This document shows positions 7,463-58,586 of a DNA stretch of 64,000 nt, piece after piece (within the stretch, counting starts at the first letter, position 1; each line of letters starts with the position of its first letter). The notes below the pieces were generated by a model. The model had not been told where the DNA came from. It saw only the letters and a list, made by a program, of their open reading frames with translations, and searched no databases. Source of the DNA: Methanolobus sp. (GTDB taxonomy: Archaea > Halobacteriota > Methanosarcinia > Methanosarcinales > Methanosarcinaceae). Where the stretch lies: the NCBI GenBank assembly GCA_029762595.1, contig JARVGJ010000012.1, positions 1-64,000 on the forward strand, in the 5' to 3' direction. The translations under genes were made by a program, and so were the position numbers.

Positions 7463-7472
7463 GTGCCTTTAA

Positions 7473-9419: not shown

Positions 9420-9426
9420 GGCAAAC

Positions 9427-11391: not shown

Positions 11392-11409
11392 TATAAGGAG
11401 AAAGGGGAA

Positions 11410-12306
11410 ATGGAAATGAAGATAAGATCAATGATGTCCTGTGAAAATGCCGTATCTGCCGTAATATCGGCTGTGCTTCTCCTTGGGATCATCGTGTCTG
11501 TCATAACCGTTGTGAACGTGCAGTATATCCCCGAATGGAAAACGGCTGCTGAGCAATCCCATATGGATGATGTCTTCTATGATATGGCAGGAATGAAGAA
11601 CGACGTTGACATGCTTTCTGCCTATGTCATGGCAGAGTCTTCAACGGTTCTTTCATTGAGCGTTCCTTTCAGGATGGGGGGAGGGGACCTGCCCGTGTTC
11701 AGTACAGGGAGATCCGGTGGCAGGCTGGCGATAAATGATGATTCCTTCAGCATGTATATTGAGGTGACAGGTCAAAACGGTCCTAACAGCAGTGGTACTT
11801 TTTTTGCGGACATGGGAACTGTAAGCTATATGTCTTCAAACAACTATTTCGTTGACCAGAAATACCTATATGAGAACGGTGCCCTGATCCTTTCACAGGA
11901 AAAGTATTCATTGATGCGTCTTTCTCCTCAGATCAACCTGAGAATGATCGATAATGGTAACAATATCTCCATGGACATCAATTCCATTAATATCAATGGT
12001 CCCATAAGAAGCATTTCCAGTAACACTGTTGAAGAGCTGAATATCAGGACTAATAAAAAAGATTCACTGGACTGGGAAGAAGAAGTTTTCACCAGGGTGG
12101 AGATTACAGTTGAAAGTTCACACCCATTGGCATGGGAAAAGTTCTTTGACAGGCTGGCAATCGATTCCGGGCTTGATCCACTGGACTATTCGGTATCTGA
12201 AGGTGCCAATCCAGCTGTTTTTACCATCATCGAAAATCCTGGAACTTATATAGTGATAAATGCAACAAAGACATCATTGGATGCCAGGCTGAATCTCCTC
12301 TCCTGA
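11410..12306 (+). CDS. Second pilin-like protein (archaeal type IV pilin N-terminus)
   Basis: A 298-aa protein. The first 40 residues, SCENAVSAVISAVLLLGIIVS and a hydrophobic stretch, resemble the archaeal pilin signal of the preceding gene. The rest is a beta-rich ectodomain rich in Asn, Ser and Ile with no recognised domain. AAAGGGG lies just upstream of ATG 11410; a second ATG at 11416 is an equal candidate. It ends the pilus operon. It resembles DUF7289-like archaeal secretion substrates, but that family name is uncertain. Confidence 0.7.
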   Translation: MEMKIRSMMSCENAVSAVISAVLLLGIIVSVITVVNVQYIPEWKTAAEQSHMDDVFYDMAGMKNDVDMLSAYVMAESSTVLSLSVPFRMGGGDLPVFSTGRSGGRLAINDDSFSMYIEVTGQNGPNSSGTFFADMGTVSYMSSNNYFVDQKYLYENGALILSQEKYSLMRLSPQINLRMIDNGNNISMDINSININGPIRSISSNTVEELNIRTNKKDSLDWEEEVFTRVEITVESSHPLAWEKFFDRLAIDSGLDPLDYSVSEGANPAVFTIIENPGTYIVINATKTSLDARLNLLS

Positions 12307-14667: not shown

Positions 14668-17600
14668 TCATCTTTTTCTTCCGTAGAGCCCAACGTAGAC
14701 AAGCAAGACTATAATGCCTGTAATTATTCCGGCAAGCACAATCCAGAATAAGGCGGAATCAGGCTTATCCTGTTCCTGGGGTACTTCATCTATATCAGTG
14801 TACTCTTTTTTAGTATCATCCGTTAAATCTTCAGCAATATCCACACCTTTTATCTCATCTTCCGGGAATGTCCGCAATGGTATCAATGGGTCCAGCGCGT
14901 CCGGATCAAGTGAATCGATGATTCCGTCCCCGTCCGTGTCGGGATTGAAAGGATCAGTGCCAAGCCTGTACTCCACGACATTGGGCAACCCGTCCAGGTC
15001 TGAATCAAGAGGGCCGGATGACCCTGTTGTCTTTCCTGCAAGGGCAAATCTGGAGAGATGTGGGACCTTTGCCCACACATAGCCTGCGTATCTCTCACCG
15101 TATAGCTCAACATCACCTGTATGGACTCCGGTATTGGAGAGCTTTATCCATTTGCGTGTGTCCTCGTTGAAATAGTAGACACACAATGTTTTCTCATCTA
15201 TGTCGTTAGGGTCGGACGTGTCACCGTCACCATTCCTGTCCAGTTCACCGGCTCGATAGTAGATTTTCAGCAGAGTGCTGTTCATTATACTGCCAGTAGT
15301 ATTCTGTATATTCTCACTGACCTCTATGTCAAAATACTTTCCAAGAGCGTATTCTCCGGATGCCAGTCCGGATCTTGTGGATAGCGGGACCGGTGGAGAG
15401 GTGGCCCTCCTTAGTTCTATCCATGGAGTGACATTTGCATCAAGGACAACACCGGCCGACAGATCAGTTCTTTTTATGGAATCAGCAGATTCTACAAGGA
15501 AAATATCCTTCGCTGCCATGTATTCCACCAGGACAGAACTGGTTGTGGTGGTGACCTGTTTGCTTCTGAAAGTGTCCAGTATCCTGCAGTAGTCATACAT
15601 GTAAGGCACTGAAAGCATTATCACTGTTTGGGTCTCATTCCATACCCCATACCTGACGGCCATTCTTTCATGATCTGATGTGATCATATTTGAGAGTAAT
15701 TCACCATCGTCGCCCAGCACATCATAGGTGATCTTTCCTGCAGTGCCATTTACAGTTCCTGGTCTTCCAAGCAGCAGGATGTAGGGTTCATGATAATGAT
15801 CTGCCAGAAGTTCATCTGCAGAACAGGCAGTTATGTTCGTATACCTGCTCAAAGAATCCAGCAGTTCTTCATTGGCTTCGGTCATATCATAAGCCACAGT
15901 GATGTTCCTGACATTTGTTACAAAAGAATCCATGTCAAGTGAATCTATGAGATTATCACCATCCGTATCCTCAAGTAATGGGTTTGTGCCGAGGATTATT
16001 TCCTGATGATCTGTCAATCCGTCATTGTCCGTATCTGCTGAAAGGGGATTTGTTTTCAGTCCCAGTTCCTCAAAGTCTGTGAGACCATCATTATCAGTAT
16101 CCTCTGAGAGAGGATCGGTTCCGGTGCCATGCACCTCATGTCCATCCTCAAGTCCGTCTTTGTCGCTGTCAGGGTCAAGCGGATCTGTACCGTAGACCCA
16201 TTCAAGATAGTCGAAAAGGCCGTCATCATCGGAATCCGGCTTGAGCGGATTGGAGCCAAACTCATATTCCTGAAGATCTGTAATGCCATCATTATCCGTA
16301 TCTACATTATTTGGATCTGTGGATAGGAGATATTCGGTCAGATCATCCAGACCGTCACCGTCGGTATCCGGATTAAAGGGACTGCTGCCAAAGAATATCT
16401 CGGTTCCATCGTCAAGTCCCTCTCCATCAGTATCGTAATTCTTCGGGTCGGTGCCAAGAATGTACTCTACATAATCACCAAGCCCATCGCCATCAGTATC
16501 AGGGTTAAGGGGGTCAGTCATTGTGATGTAACATTCGGTGTGGTCATCAAGGCCGTCAAAATCACTGTCCCTGAATCCCGGGTTGCTGGTCACATGGATC
16601 TTGTGGGTGCCTGTGGAATTGGTAATTTCCACATACCAGCCTATCTGTTCGTTCACATCTATGAGGCTGTCCCTGTCCCTGTCCTCTCCGAAAGGTTCCC
16701 AGCCCTCTTTTTCAGGATAATCATGGGTGTCGATTATTCCTATGACCTCCCTCTCTTCTTCGGGGGGAACCTGCTGGGATATGTTCCATGTCTGATAGAA
16801 GCGTAGCTTAAAGATACCCATGCTGTTAGATGCATTGAACCAGATTGTGGAAGAGTCAAAAGTCTCAGTGCCTATGGCAGGTGTCCCATTATATATTTCC
16901 TCATGTACCGTGGAATTATCCAGGCTCACAAACAGCCAGCATCTTGCAGGCGTACCTGTTATATTGGCAGCCGTGTCTTCCTTACCTGTCAGAGTGTAAT
17001 CTATCACGGCTGTGATATTTGTGTCAGGATCGGTCTTTATACTGCTTCCCATTTCGTTCATGTCCACATTGCTGATATATGCTTTTGCGACGAAGTCAGG
17101 ATCATCTGCATCCGGGATACCATTACCATTGGTATCCTCTGACCTGGGGTTGAGGCCTTTGAGGAATTCACTGAAGTCACTCAGGCCGTCGTCATCGGTA
17201 TCCTGTTTCAGGGGGCTGGACCACACATGCTGTGTAAATGTCTCTCCATGGAACTCGAATTCTATCTCCCATCCATTATGTTCTACAAAGTCGCTGAGTC
17301 CGTCCCCATCGGTGTCCCAGTTGAGAGGATCATAACCATAGCGCAGCTCAAGTCCGTCATCAAGTCCGTCCCCATCGCTATCTTTGTTGACCGGAGAGGT
17401 GCCATATTCTATTTCGTAGCCATCAGAGAGTCCATCATTATCAGTATCCCACCTGAGGGTTGATGTGCCATAGCGCAGTTCATCCTGGTTGAGAACGCCG
17501 TCACCGTCAATGTCATTTGAGGATATGGCCTTCCACAGTACAAAGCTTTCTATATCCGCAGGCATGACATCGAAATAGAGAGTAGACGGGTCTGAATCGG

Positions 17601-20600
17601 ATGTTCCCGTATTGCTCTTTTCGCTGCAGTGCCAGCCAAAGAACCACCAGCATTTATCATAGTATACCCGGTAGTCCGAGTTCAGCCAGAACCTGAAAGG
17701 GAAGTTGATCGCGGCTTCTGGCTCGATCCATAGCTTTGCTTCATATTCTGTTTCTTTTTTCCGGCTATTGTCATAATAAACAGTTGCTCCTTCAGTGGTA
17801 TTACTGCTGCCTGTAAGCGTGTAAGCGGAGCTGTACCTGTATTGGGGCTTTATATAACTATTCTGAATATTTGTGAATGAGCCACGTGATGTTCTTGTAA
17901 TGATGCCCCTGAACTGGCTTTCTAGCTCTATGCGGTCACCTTCTGTAAGGCCGTTGTCAGTATGATCGATAACATTCACGGAAGTATCCAGCATCTTCAG
18001 GTCGGCTTCGGTCTTGATCCTTACGTCTGTGAAAAGGCCGATAAGCCATTCAAAGAGCATCTGCGACCAGCCTTTACCGAATATCCATCCGAATATAAGG
18101 TCTGAAAGAGCAACAATTGCCGCAATGGCCCAACCGACCACAGGTATCAGGGATATGGCCCACAAAGCCACAGCATACAACACCATAAGTATGGCATACA
18201 GGGTGCCGACGAATATCCCATATCCTGACCAGCCTTCGCTGGCTGCTATTGACCAGAATGCATAGAAAGCTATGGCACCAACAACAACCCATGCGATAGC
18301 TCCAAGAACGGTGGTAGTCCGGTTAACGGCTCCCATGAAACCATTGCGTATCTTTGTGACCGACTCTGTCATTGCTTTCATGAGTTTCCAGTTAGTCTGG
18401 CCTGCTATCGGTGCAAGGGGTTCCAGTTTTGTGAAAGTGATGAAGGAATAGAGCGCAGTTCCACCTATCACAAGGTTACAAACAAGGTCGATTGCAGCTA
18501 TTCCATAACTGTCAATGGTATCAAGGACCTCATTGCCTTCAGGGAAGCTGAAATCGGTTTCAACAGTTCCTACTTTAGTGACAGTGGATTCACCTGTCTC
18601 CCAGGCTATCATCAGGTTCATGAAGGTTGTAAGTGTCAGCTCATCAAGCCCGCCGGCCTGTCCCCATTGCCTAACTTCTTCCAGCATATCCTCTGTAGTG
18701 ATAGCTGTGGCCGTATCTGTGTCATACCAGCTCATCTTCATGCTTTTTGTGCTTATCAAGGGTCGTTCCTTAAGCATGATATCAAAAGTGTTCCCTGTGA
18801 TATATGAAAGCGCAGCAACATCATCCATTGCAATGTAACGGAAATCGTCTTTAAATACCCCGATGACAGGCAGGATCGTGCCTGCAGGCAGGGATGATAG
18901 TATATCAGGGGTCAATTCACCGCTTATCTTTGCCAGGGCTTCATCCTGGTGGCTGGCAGAACCGGTTTCATAACTGATGGTTACATTGTATTCATCCTGT
19001 ATATTTTGGGACATCTGTTCAAGAGATGTCTGTTCTCTCAAGAACGCATAGGAAAGGACAAAACCGGCTTCAAAGGTGCGTTCCCTGTCTTCACTGAAGA
19101 ACAGGCCGAAATCCGAACCATAGTTCTCCTCAACATTAAATCCTGTGAGCATGAATCTGTCATTATACTTTGCTAGGGTTGTTGATACGGATTCATATTC
19201 ATGGATGGTCAGGGTAAATGATTCCCAGTCCTTCCTTTCATCCTTATTGGCAACGATTCCCCCTCCTCCTCCACCTTCTGCAGAAACGTACTGGCTGTTA
19301 CCTGCTCTCAAGGCGATCCTGTCATTTTCCAGATCCTGCAGCTCAAAGATCTCCCAATTTCCGATCTCTGTGCTGTTTGCTACCAGTTCTTCTCCTCCGC
19401 CATTTGCAGCATATACGTATTTTCCATCAGAGGTTTTGAGTGCTACCTTATTATTGTTGATGTAAACGAGCTCCAATATCTCATCATCTGTAACTGAAGA
19501 GCTTCTGGCAACAAGTTCTGATGTTGTCCCGTCCACTGAAACATACTGTCCCTTGTATGTTCTCAAAGATACCTTCTTTGGCCTGTCGGTCTCTCCGATC
19601 GCCATCCAGGTGAGTTCTGCCTTTGTGTGTGTATCCATGGCGGAATCACCGGGATAGAACATTCGACCGTTAAGGGCAACAGTTTTTCCGAAGTCCTTCA
19701 CAGGTGAGAGAGGGACGTATGCCTTACCTAAGGTTACAGTAATGCCGTAATCCTCAAGAGCGGAAGTATCTGAGGCGATGCCGCCCACAAGTTCTATTTC
19801 CCACAGCTGCTGGTTATCTTCCCGGGATGTGTTCTGGATCATGGTCTTGCTGGCATCGGGATACACTTCAAGGTATTTCCCGCTGTGTCTGGCAGCAAGT
19901 CTGTAATGTCCTTCGCTGTTCAGTTCAAGTTTCCACAGCTGATGGTCCTCTCCGGTGTAGTTGCCTGCTGTGAGATTTGCCATATCTTCCTGGCTGGCGT
20001 TGAATACCTCCAGGCATTTACCACTTTCAGCTGAAATTATACTGTAATAGCTCCCTTCAACCTGCTCCAGCCTCCATATCTGATAGGCGTTGCCGGTGTA
20101 ATTACCTGTGGTAACATTTACGTGTCCTTTCTGGCTTACATTCAGCTGCAGGTATTCCCCACTGTCCACAGAAACTATCTTAGCGTCTACAGGTACGGTG
20201 AGTTCAAGCATTGGTGTTACGGTGACATCATTCTTTGAATCGTCAAGGTCTTTCATCGTGCCATGTGCATCATCGGGCCAGTCCCAGCTCTGGGAAAGCA
20301 GGTCAAGGTGTTTGGGATTTTCAGGTCGTACCTGGAAGCTAAGGTAAGTGGGGTTGCCGTTGCTTGTAATGTTGAATTCAAAACTATCACTGATAACGGA
20401 TCTTGAGAAAGGTGAAAGGTCCAGGGCATCGATAACACCATCGTTGTCGTTGTCAAGGTCCCAGGCATTAGGAATTCCGTCACCGTCCAGGTCCGGATGG
20501 ACGCCAGTTACCTCATAATAATCAATAAGTCCGTCGTTGTTGGAATCCGGTTCAAGCGGGTCAAGTCCATGCTCTATCTCAAAAAGGTCATTAAGTCCGT

Positions 20601-21030
20601 CAAAATCGGAATCCGGATTATGTGGATCTGTTCCAAGCACCGTTTCAATGGAATCGGGTATTCCGTCCCCGTCACTGTCAGGACCATATTTTTCAAGGCT
20701 CATGTCTATATCTGACAGGTCGGTTGCAAGGGTCACAGGTCCGGATAGGGAGCCATCCCCGTCACTTTCAATAGGTATGGCAGCCATCAAAGCATCAGGA
20801 TCAAGGCCTGTGTCCCGCTGGTTGGCAAAGGCGATGGATTGTGCCACGGCATTGAGCGCGTAAACATCAAAAGGAGATATGGATTCGGGTTCACCGGTGT
20901 TATTGTAATATTCTTCATTGCTGGCTGCAGCTAACGCCGGGAACATACATGCTCCTATCAATAGTAGAATTGCAAATAATGCAAAAGACTGAAGTACTGC
21001 TTTGCAATGGATACTAACCGAACTGACCAT
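14668..21030 (-). CDS. Giant modular surface protein with thrombospondin type 3-like calcium repeats
   Basis: About 2120 aa. An N-terminal signal segment (AILLLIGACMFPALAAAS) precedes a block of DxDxDG repeats (about 115-215), one or two ricin-like beta-trefoil repeats (330-445, QIWRLEQ, QLWKLEL, QLWEIEL), a fascin-like trefoil (about 490-625), hydrophobic helices near 844-870, 910-937 and 940-987, and TSP3-type repeats near 1176-1312, 1494-1700 and 2012-2050 (typically DTDNDGLTD). A C-terminal helix (LFWIVLAGIITGIIVLLVYV) ends in GRKR. The DxDxDG loops should bind calcium. The start is ATG 21030 or GTG 21042; neither has a good Shine-Dalgarno. Confidence 0.85.
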   Translation of the reverse strand: MVSSVSIHCKAVLQSFALFAILLLIGACMFPALAAASNEEYYNNTGEPESISPFDVYALNAVAQSIAFANQRDTGLDPDALMAAIPIESDGDGSLSGPVTLATDLSDIDMSLEKYGPDSDGDGIPDSIETVLGTDPHNPDSDFDGLNDLFEIEHGLDPLEPDSNNDGLIDYYEVTGVHPDLDGDGIPNAWDLDNDNDGVIDALDLSPFSRSVISDSFEFNITSNGNPTYLSFQVRPENPKHLDLLSQSWDWPDDAHGTMKDLDDSKNDVTVTPMLELTVPVDAKIVSVDSGEYLQLNVSQKGHVNVTTGNYTGNAYQIWRLEQVEGSYYSIISAESGKCLEVFNASQEDMANLTAGNYTGEDHQLWKLELNSEGHYRLAARHSGKYLEVYPDASKTMIQNTSREDNQQLWEIELVGGIASDTSALEDYGITVTLGKAYVPLSPVKDFGKTVALNGRMFYPGDSAMDTHTKAELTWMAIGETDRPKKVSLRTYKGQYVSVDGTTSELVARSSSVTDDEILELVYINNNKVALKTSDGKYVYAANGGGEELVANSTEIGNWEIFELQDLENDRIALRAGNSQYVSAEGGGGGGIVANKDERKDWESFTLTIHEYESVSTTLAKYNDRFMLTGFNVEENYGSDFGLFFSEDRERTFEAGFVLSYAFLREQTSLEQMSQNIQDEYNVTISYETGSASHQDEALAKISGELTPDILSSLPAGTILPVIGVFKDDFRYIAMDDVAALSYITGNTFDIMLKERPLISTKSMKMSWYDTDTATAITTEDMLEEVRQWGQAGGLDELTLTTFMNLMIAWETGESTVTKVGTVETDFSFPEGNEVLDTIDSYGIAAIDLVCNLVIGGTALYSFITFTKLEPLAPIAGQTNWKLMKAMTESVTKIRNGFMGAVNRTTTVLGAIAWVVVGAIAFYAFWSIAASEGWSGYGIFVGTLYAILMVLYAVALWAISLIPVVGWAIAAIVALSDLIFGWIFGKGWSQMLFEWLIGLFTDVRIKTEADLKMLDTSVNVIDHTDNGLTEGDRIELESQFRGIITRTSRGSFTNIQNSYIKPQYRYSSAYTLTGSSNTTEGATVYYDNSRKKETEYEAKLWIEPEAAINFPFRFWLNSDYRVYYDKCWWFFGWHCSEKSNTGTSDSDPSTLYFDVMPADIESFVLWKAISSNDIDGDGVLNQDELRYGTSTLRWDTDNDGLSDGYEIEYGTSPVNKDSDGDGLDDGLELRYGYDPLNWDTDGDGLSDFVEHNGWEIEFEFHGETFTQHVWSSPLKQDTDDDGLSDFSEFLKGLNPRSEDTNGNGIPDADDPDFVAKAYISNVDMNEMGSSIKTDPDTNITAVIDYTLTGKEDTAANITGTPARCWLFVSLDNSTVHEEIYNGTPAIGTETFDSSTIWFNASNSMGIFKLRFYQTWNISQQVPPEEEREVIGIIDTHDYPEKEGWEPFGEDRDRDSLIDVNEQIGWYVEITNSTGTHKIHVTSNPGFRDSDFDGLDDHTECYITMTDPLNPDTDGDGLGDYVEYILGTDPKNYDTDGEGLDDGTEIFFGSSPFNPDTDGDGLDDLTEYLLSTDPNNVDTDNDGITDLQEYEFGSNPLKPDSDDDGLFDYLEWVYGTDPLDPDSDKDGLEDGHEVHGTGTDPLSEDTDNDGLTDFEELGLKTNPLSADTDNDGLTDHQEIILGTNPLLEDTDGDNLIDSLDMDSFVTNVRNITVAYDMTEANEELLDSLSRYTNITACSADELLADHYHEPYILLLGRPGTVNGTAGKITYDVLGDDGELLSNMITSDHERMAVRYGVWNETQTVIMLSVPYMYDYCRILDTFRSKQVTTTTSSVLVEYMAAKDIFLVESADSIKRTDLSAGVVLDANVTPWIELRRATSPPVPLSTRSGLASGEYALGKYFDIEVSENIQNTTGSIMNSTLLKIYYRAGELDRNGDGDTSDPNDIDEKTLCVYYFNEDTRKWIKLSNTGVHTGDVELYGERYAGYVWAKVPHLSRFALAGKTTGSSGPLDSDLDGLPNVVEYRLGTDPFNPDTDGDGIIDSLDPDALDPLIPLRTFPEDEIKGVDIAEDLTDDTKKEYTDIDEVPQEQDKPDSALFWIVLAGIITGIIVLLVYVGLYGRKR

Positions 21031-21108
21031 TCTGTTAGTCACGAAGTAAAAACCAACCCCTATTTCAACATTATATTCTTTTGCTCCTTAAAGAGTATTT
21101 GAACTTAA

Positions 21109-29265: not shown

Positions 29266-32200
29266 TCAAATTTGTAATTCAAAATTGTCATAGGCAATAG
29301 ACCTTTCATCCCTTTCTCCAACTTTATCCCCAACACCTTTTGGCCCCGGTCCAACTACAGTGGCTGCATATCCAGAAAAACCAAACTTAATTGGCTGATT
29401 TCGACCAACAACAATCAAACTTCCACCAATATCTGTTTTCGTTGGATGAAAAACATATCCATCTTTACGAATGTAAACCTGCGCATCATGCCCGAAATAC
29501 GGATTGAATAAACATTCATTATCATTATCTATTACTTTGAACGTTTTGTACATGCCTTTTACATCATATTCCCACACATTCACGGTACATACCCAGTGCG
29601 GCGGGATTACCGGCAGGCCTGCTGGTACCAGTTTCATCGATCTTTGTAGCCTTTTTTCCATCTGGTCTGCCAGGTTTCCTGTCAGTTTATCTGTGGAGTC
29701 ATCAAGCATTTTCTGCAATTCAGAATTGATGTTCTCAAAGCACTGGTCGATGGTTTCCTGGCAGATATTTACGGCTTCTGAGACCCCATCAGCTATACCT
29801 ATACCAAGGTCTGCTTTGAGGCGGTACAGGGCAACATCCATCTCATTGGAGGATATCGTTGGATTTTCATTTTTTATCTTTTCACTTATAAGGATCATCA
29901 ATTCATCCTGAAGTGTGCCTTCGCCAACCTTGCTTATAAGTTCATCATCGGAAAGATCATTCAGATAAGCTGATGTTATCAGGCGGACATCAGAATTGCT
30001 TATCCACATGCTAAGGACCGGGTCCTTTGCAACTTCATTGGCAAGCATAACAGGAACCTGCTGCCTGATACTTGTACTATATTCATGTGTCATTATTGCC
30101 CGGTTCTGTTCAATTACAGCAGTATCTACTGATATGCCGCCCATGGCAAGTTCTGCACTTCTGGAATCCAGATCCTTCAAAAGTGAATCAATCTCCCCGT
30201 TCATGTCCGAGATACTCTGGCTCATGGACTGCGAGATGGCATCTTTCAGGGGCGCTGAAGCCTCTGAGAGCATTTCTGCAATACTGTCCCCTATCCCTGT
30301 GGAAAAGACACAGACATTCCTTACTCCTAGTGGATATATAGTCAATCCACTGAACTCATCCTCCCACCTATACTGGCCCTGCATGTCAAAATCAGGGTCA
30401 TGGTAGAGATAATCGGGGTACTGGTCAACTACGATGGTCATATTCTCTGTCCAGCTGTACTTGCTGCCGGGAAGACCAACGACCTCCATTGTTTCGATTA
30501 TGCCCATCTGGGCTGCAAGGGCGGTGGATGCCATATCCATGGCGGGATTGTTGAAGAGCACATCTGTGGAGACCTTATTCTTTACAAGACCTAGAATGGA
30601 ATGGCCCTGTTCTCTTGTGAAGGATTCGTCGATGTGGTCAGTGAAGGAATCACCGATATCCTGGTTGCGCTCCCGGAGCTCTTTGAGCAGGCGCTGGTAA
30701 GCCTCGTTCTTTGCGATGGCACGGGCGGCGTCGCTGCTTGTGTTAAACTCCGGGCCGTTCATATATCTGGCCTGTTTTATGAAAGATTCGCGTTTTGTCC
30801 TGTCTGCCATCTCACCGGCAAGATCAAGTGATGCCTCCTGTATCATGCGTGTGGGGTCCCTGCCAAGGTTCTCTCCCAGCAGTGATACTTCCCTTGTGGG
30901 ATTATCGGCATTGATAGCAGTGAACATCTCTTCCATTTCCCCTGCCATTTCCGGCAGGAGCCATTCCGGGATATCGCAATGGACCCTGGTAGGGGGAAGA
31001 AGCGTGCCATTGTTGTAGCTGTAATACTCCTTCTCTATTATGAGCAGTCTGTCACTGACCTGCTCTGCACGGTACTTATCAGCAGCATCGCTGCAGCCAG
31101 GGTCATGCTCAGGTGAACCATTCACAATGACAGTGGATGATCTGTAATCATTCGAACTTCCTGGATCATATGTATCATCAAGGCCAGAATAACCGCCCGA
31201 TGGCAGGTACTGGTGATAGACTATACTCATATCCTCCGTCTCGTTCCTGGAGTGGATGATGGTTCCACTGTCCACAAGCGGATATCCCCTCAGTGAACCG
31301 GAGGAGTCTCCTGAGAAGAAGTTCCAGTGACCTGCGCCTTCTGCAGAAGCTGTATAGGTCTTAAAAGACCAGTGATAGTTGTAGGATATATCCCATCTTG
31401 TCTTTACCTTGAACCTTACATTATATGTTACCTTCCAGTCAAAGCTGCGGTCCTCACGGAGCAGGTAATCATCCACACGTTGTAAATCCCGTATCCTGTC
31501 ATTGCCCAGGTAATCATAGCTGACATCCACGCTTTCAATTGTGATATCAGTGGATATATGATCCACATCAACACCCGTGAAATACCATCTTTTTGAGGAT
31601 GCATCCACACCGGCAATGTGGTCTACTTCAAGAATGCCATTGAACTCATGATCCTCTCCCAGGGCACAGGTATGTGAGAAAGAGACCGGGTGATAACTTG
31701 TCCATTCAATGTTCTTCTTATTCTTTGATGATGCTCTCTCATATGAGATCGGACCACAGCTTGCAGGACCTGTAATCAATCCATAAGGTACGGCCTCCCT
31801 GAAACCATCCCTGAGGACCTGTCCCTGTATCGTGGCGCTGTAAACCTCCCGGGTCACATCATGCAGCAGGTCCGGCTCATTCTTACTCCATACGTTATCG
31901 TTGTAGACCCAGTTGCTGTATACCTCATTGGTGAAATTGGAAACCGAGATCACTATCTTTGAGCTCTCTGCGACCTCCTCTATGGAGGTATTGGCATCTT
32001 TCATAGACTCACCGATGCCTTCATGGACACTGATATTGAACGTACCCTCACCTGCAAGACGGTCGTATGTACTGCTAAGGTTCCTCTTTTTTTCCTCCTC
32101 ATAAGTGGAAGTGTCCCTGCTGATGTCATTGTACAGCACCTTGCTGTTGTAATAGCTGGTGTATGTCAGGGCCCAGGGGTCCACTGAGTCAAATACCCTT

Positions 32201-33333
32201 TTCTGTGCATATAGTGAGCCTGCATTCACAGAAGCGGTCAGAGCAGGCCCGGTGACGATATTAAGTGGCCCGCTAAGGTAGTGTTGCCAGGGGCCGTATG
32301 TAAATGTCCTGATATTGGTGGCACCCAGCACAATATCTGAGGTCACACCAGCACTAAGCTCTTTCTCATACTCATTAACCAGTTGCTCCAGAAGCGGCTG
32401 CCGGGATGTGATGAGTGCAGTCACATCCATGGAAGCACTCTTTGAGCTTCCAGTTGTGAGGTCTACAAGTGTATAATTGAGGTTTTTCACAGTCATAGTA
32501 TAGTATATCGGGTACTCGGGAGCCGGAGTGGATCTGGCAAGCTCCCTTACAAGGGTTCCGTTGATCTTATCGATCCTTATCTGTGAAGGGTCAACAGCCG
32601 GCTCCACATTGATGGCATATTTATTGAAAGTATGCTGGTTTGCCTGGTAATTGGTCCTCAGGTAATCATTGAAGTATTGAGCTGTGATATCCTTCAGGGG
32701 ACTGCTGCCCACATGGACCCAGTCCACTGCCTTTGTCTCATTATCGTATTCAAGGATAAGATAGGTGTAACCATACTCCGCGTTTTGCGGAATAGTTATT
32801 TCTTCCTCAAAAGCACATCTGCTCCAGAATGAATGCAGTTCATCGTAGGTCATTGTCTGGTAAACGACACCTGAATCACTCCTTACAACCAGTGTCCGTG
32901 GCTTTTCTGAAAAAACACATGATATTGCTTTAGAAATGTCTGCAGGAAGTATTACAGATACCTTCAAAGTTTTCCCGGGTTCAACATTGCGGTCACTCGC
33001 TGCAACCGAAAAGCCATCAAGGTTCACTATCTGGCCCGAATGTTCTTCGGGCACTATTACGGGATGTTCACCCTGCCATGCCATTGCCTGCATGCCAGCA
33101 TAATTCAGACAGCGTGAAAGGTCTGCTGATGCCATGTTGACAGCTGTCCTTTCAACGTCATTGGTATCGGTGTTGTAGATCACCTCTGCAAGCTCATAGT
33201 CCATCTTTGTGAGGTAAACGGAAGCAAATACCGAAAACATGAGAATGAACACCCCTATGACTGCAAAAGGTATGTAAGCCTTTTCATCACGGTAAAAGCT
33301 GTGTTTTTTGTATGATGTATCCTGCTTATTCAT
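29266..33333 (-). CDS. Large anchored surface protein with a TadG-like N-terminus
   Basis: A 1355-aa protein. The N-terminus has FYRDEKAYIPFAVIGVFILMF then ASVYLTKM, a charged residue pair just before a single hydrophobic helix, as in TadE/TadG pseudopilins and related archaeal proteins. The remainder is a predicted extracellular domain with many acidic and Asn-rich stretches and long helical parts near 810-960 and 1040-1250; no enzymatic motif is seen. A DUF7286-like family is possible. Pairing with the sarcinarray-like gene and the distant pilus operon suggests a secreted structural protein; this is inference. Confidence 0.65.
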   Translation of the reverse strand: MNKQDTSYKKHSFYRDEKAYIPFAVIGVFILMFSVFASVYLTKMDYELAEVIYNTDTNDVERTAVNMASADLSRCLNYAGMQAMAWQGEHPVIVPEEHSGQIVNLDGFSVAASDRNVEPGKTLKVSVILPADISKAISCVFSEKPRTLVVRSDSGVVYQTMTYDELHSFWSRCAFEEEITIPQNAEYGYTYLILEYDNETKAVDWVHVGSSPLKDITAQYFNDYLRTNYQANQHTFNKYAINVEPAVDPSQIRIDKINGTLVRELARSTPAPEYPIYYTMTVKNLNYTLVDLTTGSSKSASMDVTALITSRQPLLEQLVNEYEKELSAGVTSDIVLGATNIRTFTYGPWQHYLSGPLNIVTGPALTASVNAGSLYAQKRVFDSVDPWALTYTSYYNSKVLYNDISRDTSTYEEEKKRNLSSTYDRLAGEGTFNISVHEGIGESMKDANTSIEEVAESSKIVISVSNFTNEVYSNWVYNDNVWSKNEPDLLHDVTREVYSATIQGQVLRDGFREAVPYGLITGPASCGPISYERASSKNKKNIEWTSYHPVSFSHTCALGEDHEFNGILEVDHIAGVDASSKRWYFTGVDVDHISTDITIESVDVSYDYLGNDRIRDLQRVDDYLLREDRSFDWKVTYNVRFKVKTRWDISYNYHWSFKTYTASAEGAGHWNFFSGDSSGSLRGYPLVDSGTIIHSRNETEDMSIVYHQYLPSGGYSGLDDTYDPGSSNDYRSSTVIVNGSPEHDPGCSDAADKYRAEQVSDRLLIIEKEYYSYNNGTLLPPTRVHCDIPEWLLPEMAGEMEEMFTAINADNPTREVSLLGENLGRDPTRMIQEASLDLAGEMADRTKRESFIKQARYMNGPEFNTSSDAARAIAKNEAYQRLLKELRERNQDIGDSFTDHIDESFTREQGHSILGLVKNKVSTDVLFNNPAMDMASTALAAQMGIIETMEVVGLPGSKYSWTENMTIVVDQYPDYLYHDPDFDMQGQYRWEDEFSGLTIYPLGVRNVCVFSTGIGDSIAEMLSEASAPLKDAISQSMSQSISDMNGEIDSLLKDLDSRSAELAMGGISVDTAVIEQNRAIMTHEYSTSIRQQVPVMLANEVAKDPVLSMWISNSDVRLITSAYLNDLSDDELISKVGEGTLQDELMILISEKIKNENPTISSNEMDVALYRLKADLGIGIADGVSEAVNICQETIDQCFENINSELQKMLDDSTDKLTGNLADQMEKRLQRSMKLVPAGLPVIPPHWVCTVNVWEYDVKGMYKTFKVIDNDNECLFNPYFGHDAQVYIRKDGYVFHPTKTDIGGSLIVVGRNQPIKFGFSGYAATVVGPGPKGVGDKVGERDERSIAYDNFELQI

Positions 33334-33644: not shown

Positions 33645-33809
33645 CAAAAAACACTTATATGCAAAAAAGCAGAATTCCAAGCAAAATTATATTTATTTAC
33701 TATTATTTTATAACTGTGAATACAATCGAAGCATTCAAATAGTTGCACAGTATAATTATAAATTATAATTTTATTATATTATGCAGTATTGAATCTTAGA
33801 GGACAGTTC

Positions 33810-34553
33810 ATGAGAATAAAAACAGGTGTCGAAGGTTTTGACGAGCTGGTGCAGGGAGGATTGCTTGCAGAACGTGTATATCTGGTAAGCGGTCCCCCGG
33901 GTAGTGGCAAAACAACTTTTTGTGTTCAATACCTGGCACACGGTGCAGCTCTTGGAGAAGTGGGGCTTTATCTGACCTTACTTGAAAGCCCGCAGAATAT
34001 CATTGACGATATGTCTAACTATTCAATGAATGTCGTCACTCTCATTAAGATGAAGAAGTTGCTTTTTGCAGACCTTGGTCCCAGAATGGAATACGGGTAC
34101 ATGGATGAGATGAGCGAATACATAACTCCGGACTATGAGGTCTCATCATCTGTCGGAGAGCGTGAAGCGCCTTCTCCTGCAATGGTATTCAGGGAGATAG
34201 CTGCCTATGTGGCTGAGTATGATGTCAAAAGGCTGGTCATCGACTCTGTCTCTGCTATACGGTTCACCTCAAGGGACCAGTCTCTCCAGGAAAAAGAAAT
34301 GAGCCGTTTCATAAGGAATCTTAAGAAACTTGGATGCACAACTATACTAATATCCGAAATGACAGATCCCAGTGCCTACTCTACAGAACAGTTTGCATCT
34401 CACGGTGTGGTTTTTATGCATAACTTCCTCTACGACAGAACCATGACCCGGGCTTTACAGGTGATTAAAATGAGAGGTACAAAGCATGATTGCAATATGC
34501 GTACAGTCAATTTCAGTGATAGAGGGCTTGTTGTCAGTGATCTTCTTGAATGA
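33810..34553 (+). CDS. KaiC-like RecA-superfamily ATPase
   Basis: A 248-aa single-domain ATPase. Walker A is GPPGSGKTTFC near residue 28, preceded by GVEGFDELVQGGL, the KaiC-domain signature; Walker B is RLVIDSVSAI near 145. KaiC-like ATPases in archaea often act as regulators or signal relays. It is not ArlH, since the gene context is not an archaellum operon and Walker B is intact. The ATG at 33810 is chosen over a TTG at 33789 because AGAGGA precedes it. It heads a four-gene operon with an unknown 168-aa protein 12 bases downstream and two surface proteins. Confidence 0.85.
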   Translation: MRIKTGVEGFDELVQGGLLAERVYLVSGPPGSGKTTFCVQYLAHGAALGEVGLYLTLLESPQNIIDDMSNYSMNVVTLIKMKKLLFADLGPRMEYGYMDEMSEYITPDYEVSSSVGEREAPSPAMVFREIAAYVAEYDVKRLVIDSVSAIRFTSRDQSLQEKEMSRFIRNLKKLGCTTILISEMTDPSAYSTEQFASHGVVFMHNFLYDRTMTRALQVIKMRGTKHDCNMRTVNFSDRGLVVSDLLE

Positions 34554-34565
34554 TGGTGTTCCTGG

Positions 34566-35072
34566 ATGGTAAGGTTTTTCACAAAAAAGGAAAAAAAGGC
34601 GCAACTTACGGACGCAGAGGTAGCGGAGCTCTCAAAAAAAGCCTACGATCTTGGATTTGAAGTAGGTTATCATAAACATTCAGAGCTTGGATGGGTCAGT
34701 GAGCACTATTCATTGTTAGAGGACCTTGCAAAAGAAGCCGGATTTGACAAGCTTGTCAAAGAGAAATACACCAAAGGCAAACTGGATGGTGTAAAGGCCA
34801 AAGAAAGAGACATGCACGCCGGCCTCTCTAAAAAAGAAGCTGAAAAGCAACGTAAGGACTCAAAAGGTGACTATGGTGCTTTGATATTGCCTGGAATGTC
34901 TCAAAAGCCTATTGAATCCGGATATGGGAGTTCGCTGGTAAGTGATGATAGTATTGCAGGTATGATTCTACAGCCTTCGTTTATGAACCTTCCCGAATCA
35001 ACTTCGCGTACAAAGGTCATTGACAGGCCTTCTCAGTTAAAGGGGTTTAAACCTCTATCTCCAAAAAAATAA
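34566..35072 (+). CDS. Lysine-rich cytoplasmic protein of unknown function
   Basis: A 168-aa hydrophilic protein with no signal or membrane segment. The N-terminal half is helical and highly charged (TKKEKKAQLTDAEVAELSKK; GYHKHSELGWVSEHYSLLED), while the last 60 residues look disordered and basic. It starts 12 bases after the KaiC-like ATPase and is followed 32 bases later by a surface protein. The tight pairing suggests it works with the ATPase, perhaps as its partner. No family was recognised. Confidence 0.7.
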   Translation: MVRFFTKKEKKAQLTDAEVAELSKKAYDLGFEVGYHKHSELGWVSEHYSLLEDLAKEAGFDKLVKEKYTKGKLDGVKAKERDMHAGLSKKEAEKQRKDSKGDYGALILPGMSQKPIESGYGSSLVSDDSIAGMILQPSFMNLPESTSRTKVIDRPSQLKGFKPLSPKK

Positions 35073-35104
35073 CTAATTAAAATATATTTAAGTCAGGGAT
35101 AGCT

Positions 35105-36712
35105 ATGGGAAATAAAAAACTTTTCTCTTTGTTACTGGTAATTTCTGTTTTGTTCGTCTCGTCTGCAACAGCCTATACCCTTGATGATGTTGAATGGAGC
35201 GAGAGTAAATCTGCAAGTGGTACCCTTCAGTGGGGCAATACGTTAAAATCCGGTGAATACACCGTAAAAGTGGAAGATTTCAACAAAGATGGTTTTGTAA
35301 GCATAGGTGTATATCGTGCCGGTCAATTGGAAAAGAAATCCCCTCTGCGTGCAGGAGAAGGTTTTGAATTCCGTGATGCTGACAAGGGAGATGACCTCCG
35401 GGTATTTGTAAAAACCGTAAAACTCAACATAGATAGCTGGTCAGGCAATATGGTCGATCCGACTGCTGTTGTTGAAGTATATGAGCGTGGTCTTCCTGAA
35501 ATGGATATTGTTATCAAGACAGACAAAGATACTTACGATCCCCGGCCAAATGCCTATCAGCAAATAGTTACTACGATAGATGTGAAAAACAAAGGCGATG
35601 CCGAAGCGTTGAATATGGATCTGGAGATAGATGTGGACGGGATGGAGCTGGCTGAGGGCAAACTGACACATCGTTTCAGCTCTGTTGAAAAGAACAAGGC
35701 AATGGACACTATCACATTAAAACTTAAGATTCCTCACTACTGGGAAGAGACCAATGTGAACATCAAGGTCACAACAAACTCTAAGGACATCAACGGTGAG
35801 ATCCACGAAGATACCAAGACCAAGACTTTAAAAATAAAACCTGCAGTTGAGCTCATTGTTACAAAAACGGTTACCCCGGAAATATATATGGATGGAAAGG
35901 CACATGTTTCTGTCAGTATCTGGAACAATGGTATCTACAGTGTAAGCTCTGTAAAACTCAGTAATACTGTCACAAGCGACCTTGAACTACAGGACAATGT
36001 AGGCAACGATGTTACACTTTCTTTCACACCCCGGGAAACAAAAGCAAAAGTCTTTGAATACACTTTAAAACCCACAAAGACAGGCACATTCACTATTCCG
36101 GCTGCTGTAGCTACTTTCACAGGTCCTGATGGCAAGCAGTATACTTCTAAGTCAGATGCACCCAAGATCAAGATAGACGGTCCGGATATCGTTCTCAGCA
36201 AAAAGCTCAGTCCTGATGCCGTAAACCCCGGTGATGATGTGACTGTGAGGGTCAATGTGAAGAATCAGGGTACAAGAGATGCCAGTGTTACTACAAGTGA
36301 TGTCATTCCTGAAGGCGCTATCTATGTAAGCGGTGACCTGGGATTTCATGATGTGGTGAAAAAAAGTAAAGCCCATTCCTATTCCTATGTTATCAGGGTT
36401 GAGGAGATAGGGGAGCTAAGACTTCCGGAAACAACTGCATCATTTATCGACTTTGAAGGATTTAAAGGTGAAAAGATCTCCAATATTGCAACAGTAACTG
36501 TGCTTGACCCGTCGTCAACATCCAGCAACCCTGCAGGGAGCTCTTCTTCAGACAGCAGTATTTCAGGCAATCCAGCTCAAAGTGGTTCAAGCGGAGTTTC
36601 ATATGAGGATAATATTATAGACGACAAGGTACAACCAGGATTTGAAGCAAGTCTGATGGTTATTGCGTTATTAAGTGTTTATCTCTTATCCAGGCGCAGG
36701 GAAAGGTCATAA
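35105..36712 (+). CDS. Surface protein with PGF-CTERM sorting signal and repeat domains
   Basis: A 535-aa exported protein. The signal peptide is KKLFSLLLVISVLFVSSATA. A beta-rich N-terminal domain (DDVEWSESKSASGTLQWGN) precedes several repeats like CARDB/DUF11 (TTIDVKNKGDAEALNMDLEI; VTVRVNVKNQGTRDASV). A Ser-rich linker leads to the C-terminal tripartite tail VQPGFEASLMVIALLSVYLL then SRRRERS, a clear PGF-CTERM signal, which an archaeosortase would process and link to lipid. AGGGAT is upstream of the ATG. The paralogue that follows lacks the sorting tail. Confidence 0.85.
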   Translation: MGNKKLFSLLLVISVLFVSSATAYTLDDVEWSESKSASGTLQWGNTLKSGEYTVKVEDFNKDGFVSIGVYRAGQLEKKSPLRAGEGFEFRDADKGDDLRVFVKTVKLNIDSWSGNMVDPTAVVEVYERGLPEMDIVIKTDKDTYDPRPNAYQQIVTTIDVKNKGDAEALNMDLEIDVDGMELAEGKLTHRFSSVEKNKAMDTITLKLKIPHYWEETNVNIKVTTNSKDINGEIHEDTKTKTLKIKPAVELIVTKTVTPEIYMDGKAHVSVSIWNNGIYSVSSVKLSNTVTSDLELQDNVGNDVTLSFTPRETKAKVFEYTLKPTKTGTFTIPAAVATFTGPDGKQYTSKSDAPKIKIDGPDIVLSKKLSPDAVNPGDDVTVRVNVKNQGTRDASVTTSDVIPEGAIYVSGDLGFHDVVKKSKAHSYSYVIRVEEIGELRLPETTASFIDFEGFKGEKISNIATVTVLDPSSTSSNPAGSSSSDSSISGNPAQSGSSGVSYEDNIIDDKVQPGFEASLMVIALLSVYLLSRRRERS

Positions 36713-36716
36713 CTCC

Positions 36717-38009
36717 ATGAGGCTGCCAATAGTTTTCTTCATTGGGCTGGTCTTGCTATTGGCAAATACCTGTAATATTGCAGATGCACGATCAGATAAT
36801 GTGGAATGGCTTGAAGCAAAGGAGTATACCCTCTATTGGGGGGATGAGATCAACCACAGCGGATACCTGATAAAAGCTGTGGACTTTTCTCCTGCAAAGC
36901 CAAAAGATACAGATAATGATTATGTGATGCTTTCTATATCAAGCATCTATCATGATTCATGGGGCGCCATACTTGCCAATAATACAGCTACAGCTATACC
37001 CAATAATACTGTTTTTGACAACAGGTTAAATATAACCGCCCTTGAGATAGTTACCGGGAATAATATCCCATCTCCTTATACTACAATAAATGTGGCCGTA
37101 TCCAATTCAACAGAAATCCCACCTGTGGTACTATCGTGGATGGATTCAGCATTTGAACTTAAAGAGCAAAGCAGTAACGAGATCTATATTGATGAGAGGG
37201 CCTATTTTAACCTGAAGTTGACAAACCTGAACACAATCCCAATGCCCTCCGTAACTATCAGTAAGGAACTTCCAAAGGATCTGGTATTTGACCCGGATTC
37301 GGATTCAAGATGGGAACTTTCATTCCCTCCTCATGGTAAAAAGACCCTGGAATTCTCAATGAAGGCTTTAAAGCCTGGAACCTATGAGCTCAACGGAACC
37401 CTGATCACGGTTGAACATGATGGCAGGACTTATTCCAAAGAGCTTAATGCAAGCACCCTTGTGGTCCATGGTCCTTACATAAATGTGAGCAAATCATTAT
37501 CTTCTGACAATGTTGAACTTAATGGCGAGGTCAATATAACCCTGGAAATAACAAATGAAGGGGACAGGGCAGCCCATGTCAAGATAAGCGATCAGCTTCC
37601 GGCAGGTGCTGTCCTCCTCTTTGGTGAAAATGCTGCAAGCAGGGTACTTCATGCAGATGAGAGTATCTCGATTATCTATTCTATACGCATGGGTAAGGCA
37701 GGGGAAATCGTTGTACCTGCAAGCAGGGCAAGATTCGTTGATTCCAAGGGATATGAAGGCACTGTCCATTCCGGAAAGACATTGATACACGTACGTGATC
37801 CCTTTGATACAAAGAATGAAGACGGGTTCGATGAAGATCTTTATTCTCATTATTCTTATGAAGATCATAATGACACATATACCGAAGATCTCCCAGAGCC
37901 TGTGTCAGATGCCTCTGAAAAACAAGATCATGGTAGATTACAGTTCTTACATGACATCCTTGGTTCGATAACAGGCTTCCTGAAGGATACGAAAGACAAA
38001 ATACTATGA
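36717..38009 (+). CDS. Secreted paralogue of the PGF-CTERM protein, without the sorting tail
   Basis: A 430-aa protein with a signal (LPIVFFIGLVLLLANTCNIADA). The N-terminal block DNVEWLEAKEYTLYWGDEIN parallels the upstream protein's DDVEWSESKSASGTLQWGN, and the CARDB-like repeat VNITLEITNEGDRAAHVKIS also recurs. It ends LGSITGFLKDTKDKIL, with no PGF tripartite tail, so it is probably released or held by other contacts. ATG 36717 lies 4 bases after the previous stop and AGGT sits about 9 bases upstream. The in-frame start at 36675 overlaps the previous gene and lacks support. Confidence 0.78.
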   Translation: MRLPIVFFIGLVLLLANTCNIADARSDNVEWLEAKEYTLYWGDEINHSGYLIKAVDFSPAKPKDTDNDYVMLSISSIYHDSWGAILANNTATAIPNNTVFDNRLNITALEIVTGNNIPSPYTTINVAVSNSTEIPPVVLSWMDSAFELKEQSSNEIYIDERAYFNLKLTNLNTIPMPSVTISKELPKDLVFDPDSDSRWELSFPPHGKKTLEFSMKALKPGTYELNGTLITVEHDGRTYSKELNASTLVVHGPYINVSKSLSSDNVELNGEVNITLEITNEGDRAAHVKISDQLPAGAVLLFGENAASRVLHADESISIIYSIRMGKAGEIVVPASRARFVDSKGYEGTVHSGKTLIHVRDPFDTKNEDGFDEDLYSHYSYEDHNDTYTEDLPEPVSDASEKQDHGRLQFLHDILGSITGFLKDTKDKIL

Positions 38010-38074: not shown

Positions 38075-39088
38075 ATGACAAGATCCAATAGGTCTGAGCG
38101 TAATTCTTCTTTGATCCTGACTCACGGGGATTCGGATGGTGTCTGTTCCGGTGCCATTGCAAAAAGTGCCTATCCTGATTCGGATGTTTATTTTACATCC
38201 CCTGTAGGGGTACTGGATGAACTGCAACTTGCAGATGGGTATAAGAATATAATAATATGCGATATTGCTGTTGATGAGAGCAGGTGTAAAGACCTTTTCA
38301 GGAGGCTTGAGGAACTTGCACAGAGCTCAAACCTTATCTATATAGACCATCATCCATTGCCCAGTGATTGTTTTGAAGTTGAATGGCTGCACAATGACCT
38401 TACGGTCTGTTCATCAGAGCTTACTTACAAGGTACTTAAGGACAGGCTTAGCAGGGACATGCGCAGGGTGGCTATATACGGTGCCATAGGGGATTATTAT
38501 GATAATACTCCTTCTGTCAGGGAATGGCTGCGTGACTGGGATAAGAGGAGTCTTTTCTTCCAGGCAGGAACTCTTATCCAGGCACTTATATTCGCAGGGC
38601 GCAATTATGATTTCAAAAGAAAGGTCCTGTTACCTCTCTCACATGATAGGATCCCCACAGAGATACCTAATGTTCTCAGATCTGCAAAAGAAGGTGCCAG
38701 CCTTGAGGAAAAGCTTCGTATCCATGTAAAACAAGAGGTCAGAACACTTGCTAACCTGGCATATGTGGTTGACCCGAATGGTTATATGTCTAAATCTGCT
38801 ATATATGCTGCTTCCTACGGAGGAAAAGACGTGGGTCTGTCTGCTGAATACAGGTATAAGCGGGATGTGTATGATATGAGCCTTCGTTCCAGGGACAGTG
38901 TTGACCTTAACAGGCTGCTTCGTAGTATAGCCCCACGTTTTGGGGGCAGCGGCGGTGGACATTCAGCAGCAGCTGGTGCAAGGATCCCCAAGTCCTCTTT
39001 TGATGAGTTCCTCCGTGAACTGGACAAGGCCATCGGAAAGGAAAAAAGCAGGTTTAAAGTGGATGCAAATGGCAAAGAAAGTCAATGA
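38075..39088 (+). CDS. DHH-family phosphoesterase with DHHA1 domain
   Basis: A 337-aa protein. The N-terminal DHH domain has THGDSDGVCSGAIAK near residue 14, a DIAVDESRC strand and IYIDHHPLPSD near 92 with the metal-binding DHH. The C-terminal DHHA1 domain ends FGGSGGGHSAAAGARIP near 297. Family members hydrolyse phosphodiesters in short RNA, cyclic dinucleotides or single-stranded DNA; the substrate is not decidable here. It may be cotranscribed with the EngB-like gene that overlaps its 3' end. Confidence 0.88.
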   Translation: MTRSNRSERNSSLILTHGDSDGVCSGAIAKSAYPDSDVYFTSPVGVLDELQLADGYKNIIICDIAVDESRCKDLFRRLEELAQSSNLIYIDHHPLPSDCFEVEWLHNDLTVCSSELTYKVLKDRLSRDMRRVAIYGAIGDYYDNTPSVREWLRDWDKRSLFFQAGTLIQALIFAGRNYDFKRKVLLPLSHDRIPTEIPNVLRSAKEGASLEEKLRIHVKQEVRTLANLAYVVDPNGYMSKSAIYAASYGGKDVGLSAEYRYKRDVYDMSLRSRDSVDLNRLLRSIAPRFGGSGGGHSAAAGARIPKSSFDEFLRELDKAIGKEKSRFKVDANGKESQ

Positions 39089-58391: not shown

Positions 58392-58586
58392 GAATTATTC
58401 GTAACACTTTGAATTGACAAATCCCTGAAATTTTGATAATTAGCAAAATTGTAAGGCATCTGCGGAATATAAGTAATAGAAGGAATTATTGAATATTATA
58501 TTGTCACTGATTTACATCTTGTATGTATTCTTTGTAAGTATTAGAACTATTTGGGAGAACTATTTGGGATCAAAAGGAGTGAGCAG

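Follow-up and report, generated by a model that had tools for sequence, protein, structure and literature searches.

The window, by which we mean the whole 64,000-nucleotide stretch of Methanolobus sp. DNA that was analysed, carries four genes on the forward strand, separated by 12, 32 and 4 bases, which encode a KaiC-like ATPase, a small protein that we call P2 and two surface proteins, SurfA and SurfB (Table 1). The original prediction was built on these four tightly packed genes, and their open reading frames were recovered as it had placed them. A DHH/DHHA1 phosphoesterase and an MMR_HSR1-type GTPase follow; the start of the GTPase gene was set by ortholog length and Pfam was run on the ortholog in locus L147. 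Just upstream of the four genes, in divergent orientation, lies a gene for a 1355-aa DUF7286 protein (29266-33333, reverse strand), with two further, unassigned genes (298 and 203 aa) nearby.

Table 1. Features of the predicted operon and of the adjoining genes, in window positions
Feature	Positions	Strand	Basis or remark
GAGG, possible ribosome-binding site of the KaiC gene	33799..33802	+	by eye
KaiC-family single-domain ATPase, 247 aa	33810..34553	+	ORF, PF06745, Walker A GPPGSGKT
P2, 168 aa, no known family	34566..35072	+	ORF; predicted three-helix domain
SurfA, 535 aa	35105..36712	+	signal peptide, DUF11/BatD/CARDB Ig-like domains, PGF-CTERM-like tail
SurfB, 430 aa	36717..38009	+	signal peptide, Ig-like beta domains, C-terminal helix, no sorting tail
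DHH/DHHA1 phosphoesterase	38075..39088	+	member of the (probably older) SurfA-SurfB-DHH-GTPase cluster
MMR_HSR1-type GTPase, 208 aa	39069..39695	+	final gene of the SurfA-SurfB-DHH-GTPase cluster

Products of the predicted operon

The KaiC-like identity of the ATPase was borne out by Pfam, the protein scoring 163.8 bits against the KaiC model PF06745 (gathering cut-off 26.6) and thus belonging to the KaiC superfamily; its best solved match is the N-terminal (CI) domain of cyanobacterial KaiC (E 1.1e-46 for the chain). The TFEE motif of KaiC CI contains two glutamates, which we take to be catalytic, where the window KaiC has one acidic residue, E59, and the KaiC proteins of f3, g8 and locus L155 differ again at these positions. 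Two more specific identities were rejected: the protein is not ArlH (27.1 of the 215 bits of the equivalog, the genome having its own ArlH elsewhere, in the arl operon) and not a circadian KaiC (247 aa in a single domain, 104.9 bits against an equivalog cut-off of 546.25). We infer that it works as a nucleotide-dependent switch, for which a precedent exists in ArlH, described in the available part of PMC8978795 as binding ATP without hydrolysing it and as autophosphorylating. In two g8 KaiC proteins that have no P2 beside them, 8-9 of 49 otherwise invariant residues are altered, seven of them within residues 183-228, whereas the distant, P2-bearing KaiC of L155 has 7 of 49 altered, spread more evenly, and retains E183, Y190, F206, M212, A215 and T224, which the P2-bearing KaiC proteins compared have in common and which are altered in the two from g8. 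Residues 183-228 are therefore a candidate contact for P2, although a general relaxation of constraint would look similar.

The second gene had been described as encoding a partner of no known family, and P2 indeed has no Pfam or NCBIfam match at an E-value of 0.1. A three-helix domain is predicted for residues 16-98, with a confidence near 90 over most of its length, and the core of this domain reads LGxEVGYxxHSExGWVxxxY, with G34, Y35, H38, S39, E40, G42 and W43 invariant; outside residues 16-98 the prediction is of low confidence (a linker), yet P137, P143, P155 and G160 are conserved there in a proline/glycine C-terminal motif. Compared with solved folds, the helical domain gave a best Foldseek E-value of 3.1 and a best VIA Z of 6.5 (rmsd 2.3, 68 aligned), which for helical bundles is too low to count. 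KaiA chains were not significant matches (Foldseek E 5.0 and worse, VIA Z 3.9 and 3.4), and a search of PDB sequences with the P2 profile returned two chance-level matches alone (E 0.44 and 0.66). We considered and rejected the possibilities that P2 is CheF, as it does not match PF04283, and that it is a fragment of ArlD/E (PF04659, Arch_fla_DE/ArlCDE), for which there was likewise no Pfam match and for which profile comparison aligned one 17-column piece at a probability of 8.9%; the short string (E/D)-x-G-W-(V/I)-S-E shared by P2 and ArlD/E is correspondingly weak.

SurfA and SurfB, the signal peptides of which were read from sequence, are both members of the DUF11 family (PF01345; 47.7 and 34.5 bits against a cut-off of 24.6), and SurfA carries BatD/CARDB in addition (Pfam/NCBIfam). 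As had been proposed, they are paralogues, since SurfB matches the C-terminal half of SurfA with 30% identity (E 3.6e-26). The PGF-CTERM label given to SurfA is plausible from its C-terminus, QPGFEASLMVIALLSVYLLSRRRERS, which has the expected layout of PGF, hydrophobic stretch and basic tail, in a genome that encodes archaeosortase A (E 1.6e-77), but the tail reaches neither of the curated cut-offs (16.5 of 18.8 bits with Pfam, 14 of 24.5 with NCBIfam). SurfB has no sorting tail, as had been claimed, and ends in a predicted helix; its model consists of Ig-like beta domains and this helix, and the structures that it matches belong to generic Ig-like proteins. Elsewhere in the window, a 2124-aa protein with ricin-type lectin and TSP3 repeats is encoded on the reverse strand (14671-21042).

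Distribution and history of the KaiC-P2 pair

The P2 profile matched 87 of 237 genomes of the class and 43 of 392 genomes drawn from the phylum, one of the latter (G406, E 6e-4) being doubtful. A KaiC ortholog (E<=1e-60) was present in 87 of 87 P2 genomes, and was found without P2 in six genomes, all of genus g8. Of 75 named loci, 72 have KaiC and P2 adjacent on one strand, the three exceptions being a matter of gene calls (in L085 and L102, near a contig end, the KaiC ORF is missing, and in L098 a full P2 ORF). As far as sequence comparison goes, the conserved unit is the KaiC-P2 pair. Two tandem P2 genes stand beside a single KaiC gene at L050 (4183-5160) and L108 (3019-4142). Two of the public records are probably misassigned: the KaiC on a Dojkabacteria-labelled contig (L105) is identical to the Methanosalsum one, and the genome recorded as Methanococcoides EBM-47 (L077, L123) groups with Methanomethylovorans.

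The original prediction had suggested a search for a conserved operon in related archaea and had named a non-conserved gene order as evidence against itself. The order KaiC-P2-SurfA-SurfB was kept in all 27 genomes of the Methanolobus genus, the window's own included (the contig ends within KaiC in G017 and G021 and within SurfB in G013), which argues that the four genes are not chance neighbours. Each of these 27 genomes has two P2 loci, and G018 shows a third, partial match. The second locus of the window's genome (L039) has no SurfA or SurfB and adjoins a gene for a SpoIIM-type membrane protein; the two KaiC copies of this genome are 81% identical and the two P2 copies 38%, which suggests that specificity is carried by P2. 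In the KaiC tree, 15 Methanolobus copies from the surface locus form one group with that of the window (16 rows, 99/89), the sister of which is a Methanomethylovorans group with copies from both loci of that genus, so that duplication or exchange did not follow a simple course. The SurfA-SurfB-DHH-GTPase cluster, or part of it, is found without KaiC-P2 at five loci elsewhere in the family (L143, L145, L146, L147 and L149), and the Methanolobus KaiC-P2 copy therefore probably joined an older cluster.

Links to the archaellum and to sensory genes

Matches to PF04659 (ArlD/E) occur in 117 of the 237 genomes of the class: in 87 of 87 genomes with P2, as against 30 of 150 without it, an association that Fisher values overstate because the 87 genomes are related and not 87 independent events. 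Joint absence also recurs, G130 having no P2, ArlD/E, SurfB or KaiC ortholog while the rest of its genus, as searched, has all four. The 30 genomes with ArlD/E and without P2 include 5 of the 8 of genus g8 and 12 of family f5, and six of the 30 are weak ArlD/E matches in the window's family; not every ArlD/E-type archaellum requires P2. At g8 the KaiC ortholog persists at its old locus without P2, including in G033, which has no ArlD/E match. According to the part of PMC1914349 available, Methanosarcina has a fla2-type cluster without flaC/D/E and M. burtonii has both types, from which it follows that P2 tracks the fla1 or ArlC/D/E type.

Physical linkage was found in two distant lineages. In Methanoperedenaceae (f5), a gene for a FlaC + FlaD/E protein lies divergent from KaiC-P2, and among the matches listed P2 is 1692-1775 bases from the ArlD/E domain in 16 genomes (19 of the family have P2). 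In L155, from another class, EarA, a methyltransferase, KaiC and P2 are read in one direction within the same predicted operon, and archaellin, ArlC, D/E, F, G, H, I and J in the opposite one, ArlJ being cut by the end of the stretch. Such a methyltransferase usually adjoins EarA (PMC4858521, in the portion available), and what is new at L155 is the presence of KaiC-P2 beside this known pairing. The window's genome has a full arl operon with its own ArlH within, and neither of its KaiC-P2 loci lies near the arl genes. A GvpD/KaiC-type ATPase and a response regulator are encoded near that arl operon (L140, 13555-16039, reverse strand, contig C11), and a 954-aa FlaC + FlaD/E protein is encoded outside it (L139, 586-3447, reverse strand, contig C26), large ArlD/E proteins recurring in the family. 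The window itself holds a type IV pilus cluster on the forward strand (5768-12303), with a PilB3-type ATPase, a T2SSF membrane protein, a pilin with PKD and laminin-G domains and a DUF7289 protein.

The two surface proteins behave differently in this respect. Taking the 111 genomes of the family and counting ArlD/E as strong at E<=1e-20 (60 genomes), SurfB (E<1e-40) was present in 57 of the 60 and in 1 of the 51 others, whereas SurfA (E<=1e-50) was present in 57 of the 60 and in 37 of the 51 and is thus not restricted to genomes with ArlD/E. The three genomes of the 60 that miss SurfB are G142 and the incomplete G149 and G151. Genus g7, which has the largest genomes of the family, is without P2, KaiC ortholog and SurfB, and most of its members keep SurfA. 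In two genomes of the Methanosalsum genus, a SurfB homologue (about 30% identity) adjoins the gene for an ArlD/E protein of 884-887 aa; further along lie another SurfB-like gene and one for ArlC/D/E, and archaellins are encoded in the surroundings (Pfam was run on the first genome only).

Sensory genes recur beside the pair. A PAS histidine kinase stands directly downstream of P2 in three Methanomethylovorans-type loci (L073, L077 and L084, two of which bear other database names), being followed by SurfA-SurfB in L077 and L084, while the contig of L073 ends before that point; a PAS kinase also stands directly upstream of KaiC in eight f3-type loci (L108, L109, L110, L117, L119, L121, L122 and L125). 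A response regulator follows P2 in L126 and L129, and a HEAT-CheX/CheC gene lies near the pair in L129. In Methanoperedenaceae, chemoreceptor genes are found on the other side of KaiC-P2 from ArlC/D/E (two loci annotated), and CheW in L055. We rejected the view that P2 is a part of chemotaxis: no CheW match turned up in 15 of the 87 P2 genomes and only a single weak one in that of the window, so P2 follows ArlD/E more closely than chemotaxis, and kinases, not chemoreceptors, may be the source of the signal in the genome of the window. A 1010-aa CheB-CheR-PAS fusion is encoded in the window on the forward strand (58551-61580).

The available part of PMC8978795 gives CheF as the usual adaptor to ArlCDE. 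With one Pfam model, which could miss a diverged CheF, we found no CheF in the window's genome or in any of the 31 Methanoperedenaceae genomes searched, and a strong match in 1 of the 55 P2-bearing genomes of the window's family. P2 is not a strict substitute for CheF, as the two coexist in 7 of the 9 P2-bearing f3 genomes, in G072 and in G258; a weaker form of this idea is retained below.

Interpretation and comparison with known systems

We favour, with moderate confidence, the reading that the operon is an archaellum accessory module, in which KaiC-P2 would serve as an ATP-dependent switch and adaptor between sensors and the archaellum, co-expressed with envelope proteins. Genome comparison gives the predicted operon, the pairing, the co-inheritance with ArlD/E and the linkage to arl and sensory genes. 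A sensory or energy signal would enter from PAS kinases, or from chemoreceptors where these are present, and the output would go to the archaellum of ArlC/D/E type, the ArlCDE/ArlH switch complex being its probable target. The three-helix domain of P2 would dock on KaiC around residues 183-228, its flexible tail reaching the partner. In Methanolobus, the KaiC-P2 copy that precedes SurfA-SurfB would have the switch made together with secreted Ig-domain proteins, and SurfB may be an envelope protein associated with the archaellum, located perhaps at the stator or where the archaellum passes the S-layer.

The original prediction had offered control of surface-layer or cell-envelope assembly, or else signal relay. 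Relay fits the kinase, response regulator, chemoreceptor/CheW and ArlC/D/E neighbours; envelope control is not indicated, since KaiC, P2 and SurfB follow ArlD/E and the broadly kept SurfA does not. That KaiC-P2 governs the assembly of the S-layer or envelope by way of SurfA and SurfB would be in keeping with the strict order in Methanolobus, with the KaiC-P2-HK-SurfA-SurfB order of two Methanomethylovorans loci and with one Methanoperedens locus (L047) where KaiC has a SurfA-like gene (22% identity) within a few kb, but in the loci compared from outside these first two genera KaiC-P2 is not beside SurfA-SurfB, SurfA persists without the pair, and SurfB follows ArlD/E and not the envelope in general. 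We rejected this output as a first choice and regard it as very improbable. It is unlikely, though less so, that the surface genes adjoin the pair by chance, KaiC-P2 having been duplicated into a position before an existing SurfA-SurfB-DHH-GTPase cluster, with only the promoter shared: the five loci with the cluster and without the pair would agree with this, but the junction is kept across the genus, and SurfB independently tracks ArlD/E and lies among archaellum genes in Methanosalsum.

Two further accounts keep a signalling role for the pair. KaiC-P2 could control the expression of archaellum genes rather than the motor, with a transcription factor as its target, in the manner proposed for Haloferax CirA; EarA shares the predicted operon of the pair in L155, an RR-PadR regulator lies downstream in L126 and L129, and deletion of CirA is reported, in the part of PMC13286277 available, to give rod-shaped, more motile cells. 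This is a possibility to be taken seriously, if a lesser one, because no DNA-binding protein was recognised among the annotated neighbours in Methanosarcinaceae loci and the tightest links in Methanoperedenaceae are to ArlC/D/E, MCP and CheW. We think it rather doubtful that the pair is a general KaiC hub of two-component type, inherited with motility merely as both mark certain free-living lineages: kinase neighbours do differ among lineages and KaiC families have been proposed as archaeal hubs (PMC5847659, portion available), but this would not account for arl linkage in two distant lineages, nor for genus g7, where large genomes go without the pair and SurfB.

The favoured reading of an archaellum accessory module can be carried further, tentatively. 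KaiC-P2 might be a CheF-independent relay from sensors to the ArlCDE switch in archaea without CheF (Methanolobus, Methanoperedenaceae), P2 a new adaptor family the two paralogues of which give one ATPase core two outputs in each Methanolobus genome, and SurfB an unrecognised envelope component of the archaellum. KaiC-like proteins are proposed signalling hubs of Archaea, and few have a named partner or output; the KaiC described here, from methanogens and anaerobic methane oxidisers, has a partner that is conserved and an output, the archaellum, that can be tested. Many of the genomes concerned have ArlD/E and no detectable CheF, which puts their route from sensor to motor in question, and the little-understood contact of the archaellum with the cell wall gains a candidate in SurfB. 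Genes of the KaiC family have already been reported in the vicinity of archaellum and pilus loci (PMC4858521, portion available); in the literature searched, which left aside the contents of the 2017 mBio paper on KaiC hubs, we found no report of P2 or SurfB.

Several known systems resemble this one in part. CheF is like P2 in its proposed place between sensors and ArlC/D/E, but P2 does not match it and has a KaiC partner; we know of no KaiC partner of CheF. The arCOG01174/arCOG03758 pair of a type IV pilus system also joins a predicted KaiC-like ATPase to a small second component, alpha-helical and 'DEATH-like', but in the portion of PMC4858521 available, from which it was compared with P2 by description only, it is linked to subclade 4B pili and not to the archaellum. 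CirA of Haloferax volcanii is, like the window KaiC, a stand-alone KaiC-like protein, and affects motility and shape; the likeness is by description, and the accessible portion of PMC13286277 mentions no P2-type partner for it. Cyanobacterial KaiC, which works with KaiA/KaiB, provides in its CI domain the closest solved match, but the window protein is a single domain and has no CII. ArlH (FlaH), the KaiC-like component of the archaellum motor, shares with the window KaiC the RecA/KaiC fold, the archaellum linkage and the build of a small single-domain ATPase, but stands separately in the arl operon, whereas the window KaiC falls far below the ArlH equivalog score and is paired with P2.
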